DNA of 13,755 nucleotides from a bacterium (lineage in GTDB: Bacteria > UBA9089 > CG2-30-40-21 > SBAY01). Shown here piece by piece: positions 2,150 to 13,256 of the stretch. The stretch covers positions 1-13,755 of the forward strand of contig JBFLYA010000101.1 of NCBI GenBank assembly GCA_040757115.1. Reading direction: 5' to 3'. The notes under the pieces were generated by a model, which was not told the origin of the DNA, did no database searches, and saw only the letters and a list, made by a program, of their open reading frames with translations. Within the stretch, counting starts at the first letter, position 1, and every line of letters starts with the position of its first letter. A program made the position numbers and the translations under genes.

Positions 2150-2386
2150 GTAACCGTTCAGGCTATATATCAAAAGTGTAAGAAAGGGGATAAGGAGATA
2201 AGAGTGATATGGAGATAAGATAATAGAAATAGATTGAAATTTATAGAAATAGGTAGAAATTGATTGTGGAAAACAACAAATTTCCATAAATTTCTATTAG
2301 TTTCTATTAATTTCAATTTTTTTAATAATATCTCCCTATCTCCTTAATCTCCACATCTCCTTTTGTTACACCACCTGAACGCTTAC
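2150..2386 (+). mobile_element. MITE A1 (family A, 237 bp)
   Basis: Termini are GTAACCGTTCAGG and CCTGAACGCTTAC, inverted repeats with one mismatch in 13. It is flanked by perfect 8-bp ATAAAGTT duplications at 2142-2149 and 2387-2394. The two halves are complementary over most of their length (purine-rich GGAGATAAG and ATAGAAAT words on the left, their complements on the right), so the whole element can fold as one long imperfect hairpin. It has no gene. It differs from A2 only by two single-base homopolymer changes. It lies between the promoter at 2111-2140 and the TGAGGA ribosome binding site at 2394-2399 of the next gene. Termini and 8-bp duplication resemble the IS66 family. Confidence 0.93.
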
Positions 2387-2405
2387 ATAAAGTTGAGGAA
2401 AATAT

Positions 2406-4532
2406 ATGGCTAAAATAAAAAAGAAGGGAAAAGGTCTTCAAGAAAAACTCACCCATAAAAAAGGGGTATCATTAGCGATAAAATCTAAATATAATTACAT
2501 TCTTATCAGCATTATCACGGCAATAACGATTTTATATGTCACCTCTACCTTTTATTATACAGGTGGGCATTTTTTCCTGCCAACAGATGATTCATTTTTA
2601 TCCTTTCATTATGCCAAACAATTATCACAAGGACAGCCGTTTCAATATAACTCAGGCGAATCTCCGACCACCGGGGCAAGAAGTCTTTTGTGGACAATCC
2701 TTTTATCTCCGGGATTTTTCATTGGATTAGATGGTAATGGGATAATTGGTTATTCATTTTTACTGGGAATTTTATTTCTCTTTTTATCAAGTTGGTTAAT
2801 CTTCAGGATTGGCGAGATACTTTTTAACCAGATGCTGGGGATAATTGCCAGCCTCCTTTTTTTGCTTAACGGACCGATTAGCTGGGGATATTTAAGTGGG
2901 ACTGAAATTGGTCTTTTTAGCACCTTAATTTTAGCTACCCTTTATTTTTTAGGACAAGAACAAGACAATGGTTACAAAAAGATAATTTTCGGTTCGTTAT
3001 TGGCAATTGCACATCCAGAGGGAATTATACTTGCATTTTTGTTGACATTAGTCCTGGTATTGAACTTAATCTTCAAAGGAGAGCGACCAAAACTAAAGAC
3101 TCTATATCTTATTATTCCTGCTATTGTTGGACTTAGTTGTATATGCTTAAACCTAATTCTAACAGGTAATGTTTATTCTACCTTTTTACAGGCGAAATCT
3201 CAATTATTTTCCCCAAATATGCCATTACCGGAAGTTTTAGCAAAATCAATTAAATTTTATGCCTATCTTCTAAAGGAGATATTTGGAGGTTTTAATGGGG
3301 CATATACTGAGATGATAGATGCAAATGTTGGACAGACGGCAACATATTTTGCACCCTTTGCCTTCTTATTCTTTTTATTAGGTTTGTTACCTTTAGCGGT
3401 TAAAGAGATTTATTCCCAAAAATTAGGTTTTAATTTCCTGACTATGAGTTGGTTCTTTCTGGGAATTGGGCTTACCGCAATTACATTTCCAACAGATTAC
3501 TCCTGGAATATAACCATTATTCCCTATTATCCATTATTTCTTATCGGGGTGGTCATAGGAATTTATCAGGTGAGTCAGATGATAAGCGCGCAGGTGACTA
3601 CATTGCCTTTAAAGGACATCTTTTACAGCATTTCTTCTTTTTTCCTTCTTTTTTCTTTATTTAGCACCTCTTTTTTTGTCGTGGTTTATGGCAAGAGTTG
3701 TAAGGATAATTATCATCAGAAGATTGGATTAGTCAAATGGGTAAAAGAAAATCTTCCGGCTAATATAACCGTGGCGATGAGTGGGATAAATACATTAAGG
3801 TATTATGAAAATAGAAACTTTATAGATTTAACTGGCGTTGGCACGAAAGGATTGGCTAAACCATATCAAAATGGTGTAGGAAGTGTATTTGAGTGGCTTG
3901 AAGATAAAAAAACATATCCGGATTGTTTTATCCTTGATAAATTAGATTTTACTCGTTCTGGTTTACTTCAGAATCAGTTATATTCGGCAAAGGTCGTGGG
4001 GGTGCGGGCAATTGAGCCCATAAATGTTTATCAGGCAAATTGGAATTTAGCCAATAGTGGAGAGCAACCAGTTACCTCATTTGATGGCTATAAATTGGTT
4101 GATAAAATTGATGTTGCTAATTTAACCGATGAAGGAAAACACAATTATAGATTTTGGGGTGCAGAACCGGGGTTAAATGCTCCGACCTATGTTTATGAAC
4201 TTTCGTGTTTAAACAGTGAGCGAAAGGTTATTGATGGAGGTCGCATCCTCTCTGGCGGGGAAAGTATGGTTGTCAAAACTCAACCGGGCCGTGAGATGAA
4301 AATAATGATGCGCACTACTGGGGCTTTAAAACTAAATGTGATAATAAATGAAAAATATCGCAAAACATGGGTTGATGAAAGAAATTATGGAAATCTCTGG
4401 GTAGAATCGATACTCACTATTCCTGGAAAATGGATTACCTCGGACAAGACAAAGATACATATTGAGATAAAGAATTTACAACAAGATACTTACTCAGTTA
4501 CCCACTATTGGTTCTTTCAAGTGGAGGATTAA
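2406..4532 (+). CDS. GT-C-like membrane glycosyltransferase, first of a tandem pair
   Basis: A 708-residue integral membrane protein. A basic N-tail (1-28) precedes the first membrane helix (30-52). The outer loop after it carries the acidic pair D61-D62 in LPTDDSFLSFHYAKQL, then GQPFQYNSGE and TTGARSLLW (about 76-96). This is the pattern of GT-C enzymes that use polyprenyl-phosphate sugars, the acidic pair being the likely catalytic or metal site. Further hydrophobic helices run to about residue 430. A soluble part follows, with WVKENLPANITVAMSGINTLRYY and a beta-rich end from about 610. It probably transfers sugar to a surface glycan or protein; substrate is unknown. TGAGGA lies 6 bases before the ATG. 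The next gene starts 8 bases on and is a paralog. Confidence 0.85.
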   Translation: MAKIKKKGKGLQEKLTHKKGVSLAIKSKYNYILISIITAITILYVTSTFYYTGGHFFLPTDDSFLSFHYAKQLSQGQPFQYNSGESPTTGARSLLWTILLSPGFFIGLDGNGIIGYSFLLGILFLFLSSWLIFRIGEILFNQMLGIIASLLFLLNGPISWGYLSGTEIGLFSTLILATLYFLGQEQDNGYKKIIFGSLLAIAHPEGIILAFLLTLVLVLNLIFKGERPKLKTLYLIIPAIVGLSCICLNLILTGNVYSTFLQAKSQLFSPNMPLPEVLAKSIKFYAYLLKEIFGGFNGAYTEMIDANVGQTATYFAPFAFLFFLLGLLPLAVKEIYSQKLGFNFLTMSWFFLGIGLTAITFPTDYSWNITIIPYYPLFLIGVVIGIYQVSQMISAQVTTLPLKDIFYSISSFFLLFSLFSTSFFVVVYGKSCKDNYHQKIGLVKWVKENLPANITVAMSGINTLRYYENRNFIDLTGVGTKGLAKPYQNGVGSVFEWLEDKKTYPDCFILDKLDFTRSGLLQNQLYSAKVVGVRAIEPINVYQANWNLANSGEQPVTSFDGYKLVDKIDVANLTDEGKHNYRFWGAEPGLNAPTYVYELSCLNSERKVIDGGRILSGGESMVVKTQPGREMKIMMRTTGALKLNVIINEKYRKTWVDERNYGNLWVESILTIPGKWITSDKTKIHIEIKNLQQDTYSVTHYWFFQVED

Positions 4533-4539
4533 ATTTTAA

Positions 4540-6630
4540 GTGTTCAAAGATAAAGAAATTATAGGGATTTTAATTATTACACTTATCATTGCATTTTTTT
4601 ATTTAGGCACTATGTTTTATTACACGATGGGGCAATTATCTGCCCCACTGGATGATACCTTCATCTTCCTTCAATATACCTGGCAATTAATTCATGGACA
4701 TCCACTGCAATATAACACTGGTGACCCACCTACTACTGGGGCAACCAGTATGATTTATCCTTTATTTTTAATCCCGGGATTTTTAATCGGGCTTGATAAG
4801 ACAAACATACTTTATTATACCTTTAGTCTGGGTGTTGTTTTTTTGACTATCTCTGGTTGGTTGGTGTTCAAGATTGGAAGGCGGTTAATTAATGATAAGA
4901 TTGGGGTTTTGATGTGTTTGCTATTCCTTTTTAATGGACCTATTTTATGGGTTTATTTAAGTGGTATGGATGCTGGATTATTTAGTCTGTCGATTCTATC
5001 AACAATGTATTCCTTGCTTTTAGAATTAGAGGACAAAGAACAGCGATATACTCGAACTATTTGGGCAGGCTCATTGATGACCTTAACCCGACCTGAAGGT
5101 TTTATCCTTTCAGTGATTATCTTTAGTTATATCTTTTGGTCAAAGGGGATAAAGAGTTATTATTTTCTCATTCCCATTGCTCTGGGGATGGCACAGATAG
5201 GAGTAAATTATTTATTTAACGGCACATTAAGTGCTAATACGATGACAGCAAAGTCTGTCTTAACGAAACCAAATGTGAATTTATTAGATATGATGGCGAC
5301 TTCAGGTAAGTACTGTGTGTATATTTTAAAGGACATTTTTAGTGGATTTAATGGTGAGTTTTCTGCGTTGATGGAGACTAATGAGGGAAGGCAGGTAAGT
5401 GTATATTTTGCGCCGTTTTCTTTAATCTTTTTCTTAATTGGCATCCTTTTTATAATCCTTAAAGAAAGGTCAAAATTTGGCATTGTTATTTCCAGTTGTT
5501 TTTTTATTGGGATATTGGCGGTTGCGACCGCACTTCCTTTTAAATGGCACTGGCACCGCTATCTTATTCCCTACTATCCAATTTTTCTCATATTTACACT
5601 TTTAGGGATTTATTATTTTAGTGAGTTAATGGGGAAGACAATTTCTTCACTTAACCCCAAATATGTATTTTATGGATTGGTATCTTTTTGCTTATGCTTT
5701 GGGTTTTTAAGCACGGTGTATTTTGGGGTAGCGTATGGAAAAAATTGTAAGGATATTTATTTTCAGCAAATAACACTCGGTAAATGGATAGATAAGAGTC
5801 TTCCTCGTGAGGCAATAATTGCCGTAAATGACCTTGGTGCATTAAAATATTTTGGAAACAGATATGTTATTGACCTGCTTGGATTAGGGACCAAAGGAGT
5901 AGCCAGGATATGGGTAAATGGGGCTGGAAGTGTTTATGAATATCTTGAGAATTTAGAGCCAAAATATTATCCTCAATATTTTATCATTTATCCTAATTGG
6001 TTTGTCTTTGATAGGCTTGGGATGTTGGAGGAAGAAATAGCTCAATTTAAACTACTTCAACCAACAATTGCTGGTAGTGGAGCCCCAATGGTAGTTTATA
6101 AGATTGATTGGGGGTTTGCACATTCCGGAGATAAAATTCAATCTCCGGATATTTTAACTCAGTTAGAGGGATATAAATTAGTTGATAGAGTTGATGTTGC
6201 GGATATTGAGAATGAATTAAAACACAGGTATAAGTTCTGGGAATCAGAACCAGGGATGTATTATGGGATGAATTATCAGGACCAGGTATTAAAACTTCCC
6301 TGTCTTGAGGCACCAGATAAAATTGTGATTGATGCCGGGAGAATGATTACGGCTGGGGAGAGTATGGTTGTTGAAACTGAGGTGGGCAAGGATTTGAAGA
6401 TAATTAAGAGAACCAATACCTTTACCCCGTTAGAGGTTTTTGTTAATGATAAATTAATTGGCTTATGGACACATCACAATGTCGAGGAGCAGTGGAGTGA
6501 GACGGTTTATGAAATTTCAGGCAGACATATAACCTCAAATAAAACTAAGATTCGGTTTGAGATTCATCGAGAATTGAGGCATCATTACACCTGTTTTTCG
6601 GCACATTATTGGTTTTATCAGAAAGCTTAA
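4540..6630 (+). CDS. GT-C-like membrane glycosyltransferase, second of a tandem pair
   Basis: A 696-residue paralog of the preceding protein, sharing the same order of motifs: first helix (about 7-29), acidic pair D38-D39 in APLDDTFIFLQYTWQL, GHPLQYNTGDPPTTGATS, multiple helices to about residue 395, a CKDIYFQ junction near 402, then WIDKSLPREAIIAVNDLGALKYFGNRYVIDLLGLGTKG and a beta-rich C-terminal domain beginning near ITAGESMVVETE. The start is GTG at 4540, with GGAGG at 4523-4527 inside the end of the previous gene, so translation is probably coupled. It lacks the 28-residue basic N-tail of its neighbour. The pair arose by tandem duplication and may act on successive steps or different acceptors of one glycan; this is inference. 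Confidence 0.85.
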   Translation: MFKDKEIIGILIITLIIAFFYLGTMFYYTMGQLSAPLDDTFIFLQYTWQLIHGHPLQYNTGDPPTTGATSMIYPLFLIPGFLIGLDKTNILYYTFSLGVVFLTISGWLVFKIGRRLINDKIGVLMCLLFLFNGPILWVYLSGMDAGLFSLSILSTMYSLLLELEDKEQRYTRTIWAGSLMTLTRPEGFILSVIIFSYIFWSKGIKSYYFLIPIALGMAQIGVNYLFNGTLSANTMTAKSVLTKPNVNLLDMMATSGKYCVYILKDIFSGFNGEFSALMETNEGRQVSVYFAPFSLIFFLIGILFIILKERSKFGIVISSCFFIGILAVATALPFKWHWHRYLIPYYPIFLIFTLLGIYYFSELMGKTISSLNPKYVFYGLVSFCLCFGFLSTVYFGVAYGKNCKDIYFQQITLGKWIDKSLPREAIIAVNDLGALKYFGNRYVIDLLGLGTKGVARIWVNGAGSVYEYLENLEPKYYPQYFIIYPNWFVFDRLGMLEEEIAQFKLLQPTIAGSGAPMVVYKIDWGFAHSGDKIQSPDILTQLEGYKLVDRVDVADIENELKHRYKFWESEPGMYYGMNYQDQVLKLPCLEAPDKIVIDAGRMITAGESMVVETEVGKDLKIIKRTNTFTPLEVFVNDKLIGLWTHHNVEEQWSETVYEISGRHITSNKTKIRFEIHRELRHHYTCFSAHYWFYQKA

Positions 6631-6631
6631 A

Positions 6632-6728
6632 CTACGAATTACACGAATTTATAGTTTCGTGATTTTGGACGCAGATTTTCGCAGATTAGCAGGATTATTT
6701 AAATTTGTATAATTCGTGAAATTAGTGG
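6632..6728. repeat. Inverted-repeat element D
   Basis: The ends CTACGAATTACACGAATT (6632-6649) and the complement of 6711-6728 (CCACTAATTTCACGAATT) match at 14 of 18 positions. It starts one base after the glycosyltransferase stop codon. The interior holds a GGACGCAGATTTTCGCAGAT segment (6667-6695) that also forms the arms of the hairpin at 13518-13587. A transcription-end role for the fold is possible but there is no T-run. Confidence 0.55.
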
Positions 6729-6742
6729 TATATTTTTGGGAA

Positions 6743-6758
6743 TGTTTCACATGAAACA
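6743..6758. promoter_or_regulatory. parS: parS-like ParB site upstream of parB
   Basis: TGTTTCACATGAAACA differs from the bacterial parS consensus TGTTTCACGTGAAACA at one central base. With flanks, the palindrome is AATGTTTCACATGAAACATT. It lies about 290 bases upstream of the parB start, separated from it by element A2, and could serve as a second nucleation site or in parB autoregulation. Confidence 0.75.
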
Positions 6759-6780
6759 TTAATCGAAAATCTAAAATTAT

Positions 6781-7017
6781 GTAACCGTTCAGGCTATATA
6801 TCAAAAGTGTAAGAAAAGGGGATAAGGAGATAAGAGTGATATGGAGATAAGATAATAGAAATAGATTGAAATTTATAGAAATAGGTAGAAATTGATTGTG
6901 GAAAACAACAAATTTCCATAAATTTCTATTAGTTTCTATTAATTTCAATTTTTTAATAATATCTCCCTATCTCCTTAATCTCCACATCTCCTTTTGTTAC
7001 ACCACCTGAACGCTTAC
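6781..7017 (+). mobile_element. MITE A2 (family A, 237 bp)
   Basis: Same orientation as A1 and almost identical to it: one extra A in the left arm and one T fewer in the right arm. Termini are GTAACCGTTCAGG and CCTGAACGCTTAC. It is flanked by perfect 8-bp AAAATTAT at 6773-6780 and 7018-7025. The distinct duplication shows an independent insertion. The right duplication lies 5 bases before the GAGGAGGG ribosome binding site of parB, so the hairpin separates parB translation signals from upstream promoter sequence and the parS-like site. Confidence 0.93.
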
Positions 7018-7045
7018 AAAATTATACTTTGAGGAGGGATTTAAA

Positions 7046-7921
7046 ATGCAACGAATAGCTTTAGGTAAAGGATTAGATGCCTTACTTCCGGAGGTAAAGT
7101 CTGAAGGGGAGAATATTCGGGAGATAAAGATTTCAGAGATTATGTCAAGTCGTTATCAACCAAGGCGGTATTTTGATGTGGAGAAACAGAAGGAATTAGC
7201 AGATTCAATCAGAGAAAAGGGAATAATTCAACCTGTTTTGGTGCGGACATCTAAGGATGGTTATGAATTAATAGCAGGTGAACGAAGGCTTCAAGCGGCG
7301 AAGTCCATTGGATTAGAGCGAATCCCGGCGATAGTGAAGGATGTAGTTGATAGCGAGGCATTAGAAATTGCCTTGATTGAAAACATTCAACGCCAGGATT
7401 TGAATCCAATGGAAGAGGCGGATGCTTATCAAAGATTAATCCGTGAATTTAATCTCACACAAGAAGATTTAGCCAAAGAGGTCGGAAAGGATAGAACCAC
7501 TGTGACGAACACCCTCCGATTATTAAAATTACCTCCTGAAATTCAAGACCATGTTTCTACGGGTATTATTTCGATGGGGCATGCACGGGCAATATTGAGT
7601 CTGGAAGTCGAGGCGCAACAATTAGAAGCATCCGAGAAAATTATTAAAAAGGGCTTATCCGTTCGGGAAACTGAAGGATTGGTTAAACGAATGAAAAAAA
7701 CGAGTGTTTCACGTGAAACATCTCAACCCCCAGAACCAGATGCCACAATTCTTGCCTGTGAAGAGGATTTAATGCGAGCATTAGGGACTAAAGTGAGGAT
7801 TAAGCAAGAATCAAAAGAGAAAGGAAAAATAGAAATAGAGTTCTATTCTTACTCAGACCTTGAAAGAATAATGGATAGAATTATCCCAAAAGCAGATTTG
7901 GTAAATATACCTACTCTGTAA
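7046..7921 (+). CDS. parB: Chromosome partitioning protein ParB
   Basis: A 291-residue ParB of normal length. The N-terminal ParB/Srx CTPase domain (about 24-115) has SRYQPRRYF (35-43), GERR at 79-82 and ENIQRQDLNP at 112-121, the CTP-binding and clamp-closing motifs. The parS-binding helix-turn-helix is about 138-160 (TQEDLAKEVGKDRTTVTNTL). A short linker (215-235) leads to a C-terminal dimerisation domain. It loads at parS, slides as a CTP clamp and, with ParA and SMC, segregates the origin region. GAGGAGGG at 7031-7038 is 7 bases from the ATG. ParA is usually just upstream; here that position is taken by glycosyltransferase genes and element A2, so parA must be elsewhere. A perfect parS is inside this gene. 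Confidence 0.97.
   Translation: MQRIALGKGLDALLPEVKSEGENIREIKISEIMSSRYQPRRYFDVEKQKELADSIREKGIIQPVLVRTSKDGYELIAGERRLQAAKSIGLERIPAIVKDVVDSEALEIALIENIQRQDLNPMEEADAYQRLIREFNLTQEDLAKEVGKDRTTVTNTLRLLKLPPEIQDHVSTGIISMGHARAILSLEVEAQQLEASEKIIKKGLSVRETEGLVKRMKKTSVSRETSQPPEPDATILACEEDLMRALGTKVRIKQESKEKGKIEIEFYSYSDLERIMDRIIPKADLVNIPTL
7705..7720. promoter_or_regulatory. parS: Perfect parS site inside parB
   Basis: TGTTTCACGTGAAACA is an exact 16-bp match to the near-universal chromosomal parS palindrome. It codes for the linker residues VSRET (221-225), a place where parS can be kept without harming a domain. It marks the locus as chromosomal and probably origin-proximal. Confidence 0.95.
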
Positions 7922-7934
7922 GAGGATAAAAAGT

Positions 7935-8513
7935 GTAAGCGTTCAGGGTGTCCGTAAGGGAAAATGGAAAAGTAGGGAAAAAAGGGGAAAAATATTAAAG
8001 AATTTCATTTCAAATTTTTGGAGTTCTCAATTCCTGAAGCTGTCAGGAACAGGTTTATTGAGGATTGTGTGCTTTGTCAGTATCACAGAATCGAAGAGCA
8101 AACGAAGCATCTAAATCTGGGACTCCGTTAAAAAAAAAGGAACTTATTTTTGCAAAAACTGTAAGCATTCAGGTGGTGTAACAAAAGGAGATGTAGAGAT
8201 TAAGGAGATAGGGAGATATTATTATAAAAAAATTGAAATTAGTAGAAACTAATAGAAATTTATGGAAATTTGTTGTTTCCCACAATCAATTTCTACCTAT
8301 TTCTATAAATTTCAATCTATTTCTATTATCTTATCTCCATATCACTCTTATCTCCTTATCCCCTTTCTTACACTTTTGATATATAGCCTGAACGGTTACC
8401 AAAAACTATAATGCGGGAACGAGCAGAACAACTTTCAAATTCCTATACATAAAAATAAATTTCCCATTTTCCCATTATTTCCCCTTTTCCCTTCATTACA
8501 CCTGAACGGTTAC
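7935..8513 (-). mobile_element. Element A4, a longer family A relative, interrupted by A3
   Basis: The left end is GTAAGCGTTCAGGGTGT and the complement of the right end is GTAACCGTTCAGGTGTAA; both continue into GGGAAAA-type purine runs. Flanks are TAAAAAGT (7927-7934) and CAAAAAGT (8514-8521), an 8-bp duplication with one change. Total length is 579 bp; removing A3 and one of its duplication copies leaves about 332 bp. The interior shares no obvious sequence with A3 beyond the ends. It holds a small hairpin (8031-8049, TTCCTGA/TCAGGAA) and a start-less open frame (7976-8131). It fills the gap between the convergent parB and radical SAM genes, starting 13 bases after the parB stop codon. Confidence 0.8.
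8161..8399 (-). mobile_element. MITE A3 (family A, 239 bp, inverted, nested in A4)
   Basis: A reverse-oriented copy of A1/A2 with termini GTAAGCATTCAGG and CCTGAACGGTTAC and perfect 8-bp CAAAAACT duplications at 8153-8160 and 8400-8407. Compared with A1 it has about four base changes and one 2-base insertion, so it is slightly older or more drifted than A1 and A2. It is inserted inside A4, dating A4 as the earlier arrival. Confidence 0.93.
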
Positions 8514-11320: not shown

Positions 11321-11527
11321 GTAATGGGTCAGTCATTTGGGGGAACGAACATTAACCTGCGGATTATAGAATAATGAAAATAGTAGGCAAGTAGGTAGTA
11401 GGTAAGTAGGAAAGGGATAAAGGATGTGCACAGTATTCTTCCCCTGGAGGCAATGTCTCCCTTTCCTACTTTCCTACTCTCCTACTTCCTACTTTCAGGA
11501 GAATCCCCCATTTCACTGACCCATTAC
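11321..11527. mobile_element. MITE-like element B2
   Basis: A 207-bp element, inverted relative to B1 and alike over its whole length. Both ends begin GTAATGGGTCAGT. Flanks TTCCTTCC (11313-11320) and TTCCCTCC (11528-11535) form an 8-bp duplication with one change. The duplicated target is the ribosome binding site of the dehydrogenase (GGAGGGAA on the minus strand), so insertion left a Shine-Dalgarno copy on the gene side. The interior GTAGGAAAG-like and CTTTCCTAC-like tracts can pair as a long hairpin. It splits what was probably a tightly spaced NDK-like/dehydrogenase operon. Confidence 0.88.
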
Positions 11528-11535
11528 TTCCCTCC

Positions 11536-11973
11536 TTAAGGGAAAAAGATAGTCATTTCTCTTTGGGCACTGATGGAATTTTCAGCCCGATGGACTAAAT
11601 TCTGGACAGCACGATTCTCGCTATAAGCAATCTCTAATGAATCTGGACTCAGACTTCGTATTGTGCCTTTTAATGCCTTTGCCGGGTCAGTAGTTCCAAC
11701 AATTTTATCCATTAGTAAAAAGAAGTCTTCTTTAATGCCATCTTTTTCTTCTAAGATAAATGCCTTAGCCGGTTTATCCTGAAGATAAGCCACTAACCAC
11801 GGATAAAACCTTTTATTTTGATGTTCAAGATAAAGTTGTTCAATCTTTTTTAGTGGTAATTTATCAAATTCTTTAACCGCAACAATCTCAGCTGCAGGGT
11901 TAATCCTGGCTAAAATCTGCTCCTCTAATTTAACACCATCAGGCTTTAGCATAAAAAATGTTCTTTGTTTCAT
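11536..11973 (-). CDS. Nucleoside diphosphate kinase-like protein, single domain
   Basis: 145 residues, the usual NDK length. Family landmarks: FFMLKPDGV (6-14, K10 in the phosphate-binding position), GTTDPAKALKGTIR (93-106) and the active-site segment NLVHRAENSISAQREM (125-140), with H128 as the expected phospho-histidine. In normal NDKs this reads N-x-x-H-G/A-S-D-S; here the S-D pair is replaced by A-E, and the arginine expected four residues before G93 is Asp (D89). It may be a weak or specialised kinase, or a regulator. The Shine-Dalgarno is poor: AAAGGA lies 18 bases away. The neighbour upstream is a tandem NDK-like protein, so three NDK-type domains occur in a row. Confidence 0.8.
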   Translation of the reverse strand: MKQRTFFMLKPDGVKLEEQILARINPAAEIVAVKEFDKLPLKKIEQLYLEHQNKRFYPWLVAYLQDKPAKAFILEEKDGIKEDFFLLMDKIVGTTDPAKALKGTIRSLSPDSLEIAYSENRAVQNLVHRAENSISAQREMTIFFP

Positions 11974-12025: not shown

Positions 12026-12083
12026 ACACAAAATATAGGGATTTGTATAAATTAAGCCCTATATATTGTGGCTGAACGGTTAC
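12026..12083. repeat. Stray family C/A end with adjoining hairpin
   Basis: The complement of 12068-12083 is GTAACCGTTCAGCCAC, matching the C1 end and the family A terminal GTAACCGTTCAG. It runs into an inverted repeat in which ACACAAAATATAGGG (12026-12040) pairs with CCCTATATATTGTGG (12057-12071). No opposite GTAAC end is visible, so this is a truncated or decayed element lying in the leader region of the single-domain NDK-like gene. Confidence 0.55.
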
Positions 12084-12308: not shown

Positions 12309-13256
12309 TTACCCCAGTTGATTATTTTCAAAATTAATTACCGCATATTCCCTTTCAAAATCCTGTTTATTTTCAGAGGTATGAACTGTATTTTCAATTA
12401 TGGACTCTGTATATGCTATACGGACAACTCCTAATGCGGTTTTACGAATCTCCTGAATAACATTTACTCCTTCATACAATAGAGCCAGCGAGCGTTTATT
12501 GCTCATAAAATCTACTAATTCACCAAAGAAGGGTTTATGTTTATGTGGGGTATAAAAGATTTCCATATCAGAGGTAGTAGGGGTAATAATCTTTGCAGAA
12601 ATGATATACATACCTGTCTTAGAAAAGGCATTGACGACATTGCCCAGTCTTGGGTCATTTGGGGTATCAAATACATTAGGCTTGACGACTACTAAACTTT
12701 GTTCAACCTGGTCTTTTATATCATCAGGATAAACAATAGTCTCTTTTAAAGGTCCTCCACATGATTTATATTTACGCCACATCACATCCAATTGGGCATC
12801 TGCTTCCTCTTTATTTGAAGGTGCAGAAGCAGGAAATTCTATAATTATGTCCGTATTTATTTTATAAAAAACGCCGTATCTTCCTAAGATAGTCGTGCCA
12901 TTCCTCTGTCTTATGTCACCCATTAAATTACTAATCCGACTGATAGCATCTTCTCCCTCGATAACTAAATTAAATATCCTTTTTTTATTATATTTCCTTT
13001 TATCATAACTTTCTTCACTCATAAGCATTTGTTTGAATTTATCCTGGATAATTTTTTCTTCTTTTGTTTCTGGCAAAGTTAATGTTTCGCAAAAATCCTC
13101 AGCAAAATCAGGGGTCAGTGTATAAACATCTGCCGCAATAATGTCTAATGGAGAATTTCCCTCAGGCATAAAGCGAATTAGACTGAGAATATCCCCTGTT
13201 AAAGACCGCTCAAGTGCGGGTAAATAGATATTAATTAAAGTTCGTTCACTTGCCAT
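12309..13256 (-). CDS. Fused double NDK-like protein, N-terminal domain degenerate
   Basis: 315 residues that I read as two NDK-like domains. The C-terminal one (about 187-309) has LVVVKPNVF (K192), KPFFGELVDFM, LYEGVNVIQEIRK, VVRIAY (R279) and ENTVHTSEN, with H292 in the phospho-histidine position, followed by EREYAVINF. The usual L-x-G-x-T-x-P loop before the arginine is missing. The N-terminal one (about 4-160) has ERTLINIYLP where ERTLxxIKPD is expected, LTPDFAEDF, VIEGEDAISRISNLMG (98-113), GTTILGRYG, then a segment with no His where N-x-x-H belongs, so it should be inactive. GGAGGAG lies 10 bases before the ATG, and a promoter is at 13335-13363. The first-domain call is mine, from motif order. 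Confidence 0.72.
   Translation of the reverse strand: MASERTLINIYLPALERSLTGDILSLIRFMPEGNSPLDIIAADVYTLTPDFAEDFCETLTLPETKEEKIIQDKFKQMLMSEESYDKRKYNKKRIFNLVIEGEDAISRISNLMGDIRQRNGTTILGRYGVFYKINTDIIIEFPASAPSNKEEADAQLDVMWRKYKSCGGPLKETIVYPDDIKDQVEQSLVVVKPNVFDTPNDPRLGNVVNAFSKTGMYIISAKIITPTTSDMEIFYTPHKHKPFFGELVDFMSNKRSLALLYEGVNVIQEIRKTALGVVRIAYTESIIENTVHTSENKQDFEREYAVINFENNQLG

Follow-up and report, generated by a model that had tools for sequence, protein, structure and literature searches.

Insertion sequences of the IS66 family have published ends GTAACCGTCCGGGCA and GTAAGCGTCCGGCGAACTCACCTT (PMC12888890), and 8-bp target duplications are listed for two of them, ISPpa5a and ISPpa7 (PMC3281130). MITECca01 of Cardinium, a trans-mobilised element derived from an IS982 element, reaches 169 copies and 3.5% of its genome (PMC9769881). 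Here, we describe family A, a gene-free hairpin family of ~130 copies, and three recently moved copies of it (A1, A2 and A3) within the window, i.e., the whole 13,755-nucleotide stretch of DNA that was analysed. Like members of the IS66 family of the single-ORF type (PF03050, DUF6444 and zf-IS66), A has ends that start with GTAA and 8-bp duplications, and its end is identical to the published end GTAACCGTCCGGGCA at 11 of 13 bases. Unlike them, A carries no gene and is itself not an IS66 insertion sequence proper, and the related element found here is one broken ORF rather than a tnpA-tnpB-tnpC set. With MITECca01, A shares its small size, lack of genes, high copy number, mostly intergenic placement, nesting in other mobile elements and ends matching an insertion sequence of the same genome; it differs by its IS66 ends, 8-bp duplications, full-length hairpin and interior unrelated to the insertion sequence, and by the several unrelated families that have its end type in common. 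In the open-access papers searched, no description of an IS66-powered MITE or of the A end sequence was found; the expansion of A is, thus, newly tied to IS66 through its ends, the length of its duplications and its empty sites. We put the probability that A is a MITE moved in trans by an IS66-family transposase made elsewhere in the cell at roughly 87%.

The features of the window on which the analysis rests are as follows:

2142-2149, no strand: left target duplication of A1, ATAAAGTT
2150-2386, + strand: MITE copy A1, 237 bp, ends GTAACCGTTCAGG...CCTGAACGCTTAC
2387-2394, no strand: right target duplication of A1, ATAAAGTT
6773-6780, no strand: left target duplication of A2, AAAATTAT
6781-7017, + strand: MITE copy A2, 237 bp; the site in a congeneric genome is empty, with a single AAAATTAT
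7018-7025, no strand: right target duplication of A2, AAAATTAT
7935-8513, no strand: element B, a longer, older MITE with the same end type (GTAAGCGTTCAGG / CCTGAACGGTTAC), interrupted by A3
8153-8160, no strand: left target duplication of A3, CAAAAACT
8161-8399, - strand: inverted MITE copy A3, 239 bp, inside element B
8400-8407, no strand: right target duplication of A3, CAAAAACT

An earlier note on this DNA had described three near-identical hairpin repeats of 237-239 bp, each with its own perfect 8-bp duplication, in a region without a transposase. The repeats are as described, with lengths of 237, 237 and 239 bp; A1 and A2 differ solely in two homopolymer lengths, A3 departs at a few bases, and no ORF of the window matches a Pfam transposase. 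The perfect duplications are present in all three window copies, and the chance of identical 8-mers 237 bp apart is 3e-5 per position in the window's own genome (G000; 4.32 Mb, 462 contigs). A2 is predicted to fold into a single hairpin of near full length (z = -9.0 as DNA and -12.4 as RNA), and A1 and A3 have nearly the same sequence. The termini are 13-bp inverted repeats with one to two differences, set inside this near full-length palindrome. A has all the features by which a MITE is recognised: it is short and gene-free (237-239 bp, below the limit of ~600 bp, with no transposase ORF inside), and it has terminal inverted repeats, a fixed 8-bp duplication, and dispersed copies with empty sites. 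After excision, 11 and 20 bases, respectively, would separate the sites of A1 and A2 from the start codons just downstream. A2 sits between a parS-like site (6743-6758, TGTTTCACATGAAACA, one mismatch) and the start of parB, which contains a second, perfect site (7705-7720, TGTTTCACGTGAAACA). The window also encodes two membrane proteins of ~700 amino acids each, which follow one another, seem to be related and have no Pfam match (2406-4532 and 4540-6630), and two nearby nucleoside diphosphate kinase domains (11536-11973 and 12309-13256), the second of which is fused behind ~180 residues without a Pfam match.

Several lines of evidence support transposition as the source of these copies. First, in a genome-wide search for the ends, as the earlier note had proposed, GTAANCGTTCAGG occurred 526 times in G000 compared to once for the reversed control. 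A longer left end of A gave 123 exact matches, or 135 with one mismatch allowed, in G000 and 77 in the congeneric genome G001; it was absent from 17 other genomes of the phylum, and neither the A ends nor the transposase were found in the viral contigs searched. Second, the duplications of A are AT-rich (83% vs 63% in the genome), with an A-rich left half and a T-rich right half (counts symmetrised). Third, sites that are empty and hold a single 8-mer, which the earlier note had made a test of its reading, are present in G001. The A2 region is collinear in this genome and reads ...CTAAAATTATACTTTGAGG..., i.e., an uninterrupted target with a single 8-mer. The empty sites predicted for two further copies (L004 and L009) were found intact, that for a third (L003) is a lower-identity match that could be a paralogue, and one insertion (L018) is common to both genomes. 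The genes flanking A are ~97% identical between the two species, compared to 98-100% identity with A2 for the A copies scored in G000. Because orthologous sequence has diverged by ~3% and these copies by at most 2%, at least part of the spread of A probably took place after the species split. At the A1 site, G001 has other insertions (L190:460-800, G001:C223), including a 34-bp remnant that begins with GTAACCGTTCAGGTATAG, the IS66 left end; at the site of element B (L190:6220-6300, G001:C223), it has a D-like element.

Long palindromes, the many copies without duplications, and the location of 20 of 28 copies outside ORFs (8 of 28 lie within mechanical ORFs of at least 100 amino acids, vs an ORF coverage of 71%) would also suit intergenic hairpins that are not transposons and that are dispersed via recombination or template switching, RNA-level or REP-like. 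We consider this highly improbable. Insertion of the REP/IS200 type leaves no duplication, whereas A has perfect 8-bp duplications and fixed ends; the exact empty sites already contradict dispersal of this kind, and no Rfam family matches A.

That each copy has its own perfect duplication holds in the window but not generally, since among 44 complete copies sampled, 19 have perfect 8-bp duplications and 25 do not; the reading that all identical copies retain their duplications is ruled out by this sample. In a first set, perfect duplications flanked 12 of 29 copies compared to 1 of 812 mismatched flank pairs. We paired orphan left flanks, which came from copies lacking the duplication and from contigs that break off within A, with orphan right flanks and obtained 12 matches at 8/8 (one counted twice) vs 0-2 in shifted controls. 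Most of these matches rejoin cut contigs and three link a copy lacking the duplication to another copy. It is, therefore, likely that some exchange between A copies occurred, either in vivo or in assembly. Only 3 of the 25 copies without a perfect duplication have flanks matched elsewhere. For these three, the flanks point to exchange, and exchange, whether cellular or introduced by the assembler, is most likely also how the other identical copies lost their duplications. Many contigs of G000 break ~100-125 bp inside A, as expected when short-read assembly meets a repeat. These breaks, together with the pairing of orphan 8-mers across contig ends (12 vs 0-2 in shifted controls), lend some weight to the proposal that the near-identity of the copies and the loss of duplications stem in part from faulty assembly of short reads in a metagenome bin. 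This proposal is compatible with mobilisation by IS66 and covers only the copies lacking duplications and the degree of identity. We hold it as possible but rather doubtful, given that the window copies differ among themselves and that misjoins cannot create empty sites or intact duplications.

The earlier note had placed the ends and the 8-bp duplication in the IS66 family and had suggested a search for an IS66 tnpABC element with the same ends. A PF03050 search of G000 yielded a single gene that is close to complete (G000:C277, locus L031 893-2455), bounded by a 15-bp perfect inverted repeat, GTAACCGTTCAGGTA, and with pieces that match DDE_Tnp_IS66 and DUF6444. Thus, G000 itself contains an IS66 gene that shares the ends of A; it is, however, of the single-ORF type and broken by an in-frame TAA and an in-frame TAG, and the element's own flanks show no duplication. 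Most of the remaining IS66 pieces of G000 are truncated where a contig stops. The end GTAACTATTCAGCA, which resembles that of MITE family F, marks a second IS66 type. In the 840 kb of G000 stretches that form our main sample, GTAACCGTTCAGG-type ends enclose only one transposase, which is IS66, as judged from the listed ORFs rather than from a domain scan of each ORF. Relatives extend this picture. An intact IS66 relative of 468 amino acids (L082) with ends GTAACCGTTCAC is present in G004, a genome of the same order in which 3801 bp match GenBank JASEHA01 ("bacterium isolate Yes70-11") at 100% identity. Relatives of the transposase in named genomes of several phyla also have GTAACCGTTCAC-type ends, with perfect 8-bp duplications (8/8) in Omnitrophota (L115, AATTCTTT) and in Desulfosarcina widdelii (L127, AAAGATAC), while several other full-length IS66 relatives show no duplications in their assemblies. 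The IS66 assignment is, therefore, supported by the G000:C277 gene and its flanking repeats, by the ends and duplications of its relatives, and by the published IS66 ends and duplications. A does not derive from the G000:C277 element by internal deletion; the two have just 13-18 bp in common.

The other reading to be weighed is that a different DDE transposase with 8-bp duplications moves A and that the likeness of its ends to those of IS66 is ancient or due to chance. In its favour, the search for transposases between exact GTAACCGTTCAGG ends brought up no intact one, and G001 and G008, a genome from another family of the phylum, are rich in such MITEs but lack a full IS66 gene of the matching type: G001 has 483 ends and no such gene, and G008, which has 108 such ends and similar MITEs, has zero PF03050 matches. 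Such absences are weak evidence because draft bins frequently miss high-copy elements, but the enzyme may also be a different one or have been lost. Moreover, IS66 is the only transposase between such ends in the 840 kb, the IS66 end types parallel the MITE end types in these genomes, and the published IS66 ends agree with A at 11 of 13 bases. We, therefore, regard a different DDE transposase as unlikely. The earlier note's assignment to IS66 is well supported by the matching ends and duplications; the action in trans is something we infer, the sole gene with exactly these ends being broken. Judged from the sequences, an IS66-type transposon of the same genome most likely supplied the enzyme that moved A, and we infer that an intact source existed recently. 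The two arms of A pair with one another over nearly their full extent, and its ends (GTAACCGTTCAGG / GTAAGCGTTCAGG) resemble those that an IS66-family DDE transposase would bind and cleave. A related IS66 element elsewhere in the cell would make this transposase, which would join the ends of A to AT-rich target DNA cut in a staggered manner; a stagger of 8 bp would, once repaired, leave the 8-bp target duplications.

A is not the only family with such ends. The flanks of element B (TAAAAAGT / CAAAAAGT) match at 7 of 8 bases, and A3 is nested within it; thus, insertions of different age are stacked here. In the G000 sample, 38 end pairs have a duplication of at least 7/8, a few of them overlapping or chance pairings, and they fall into families with unlike interiors, i.e., A, B, D (CGCAGAGACGCAGAG), E (CCACAGAGGCACAGAG), F (GGACACGGAT), G and H. 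The families compared share little beyond the ends with the IS66 element. Together with family C, they make up ~3.0% of 814 kb. Family C is a second hairpin with ends GTAATGGGTCAG / GTAATACGTCAG and ~13 loci in the 814 kb; it occupies 69-269 and 11321-11527 of the window, where one copy has GGTAATTG on both sides, within repetitive sequence, and the other has TTCCTTCC/TTCCCTCC. G008 has MITE families of its own with 8-bp duplications, one of which begins with 20 bp, GTAACCGTTCAGGTATAGCT, identical to the IS66 left end. Ends of the E/F type occur in 5 of 290 genomes, all of the phylum of the window organism. The same pattern finds many such ends in G008 (e.g., L271 and L275) and none in G013, a genome of the same genus, indicating patchy spread. 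Remnants of other families with GTAAC-type ends lie at 494-655 (CACGGAT interior) and 12063-12083 (a solo right end, GGCTGAACGGTTAC) of the window. We tentatively propose, at less than even odds, that the genus hosts at least seven MITE families with IS66 ends, making up ~3% of the sample with family C included, with further families in G008; these families would have unrelated, mostly palindromic interiors, share no more than their ends of 13-20 bp, and have arisen by repeated capture of hairpins between IS66 ends and not by deletion of an insertion sequence.

Altogether, A is a recently active MITE family of a familiar kind, unusually abundant and varied, for which an IS66 transposase acting in trans is the best explanation. 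It explains many of the contig breaks of this draft genome. The main interest lies in its abundance and in how many unrelated hairpin families share its ends, and A provides a testable case of unrelated hairpins acquiring transposon ends.
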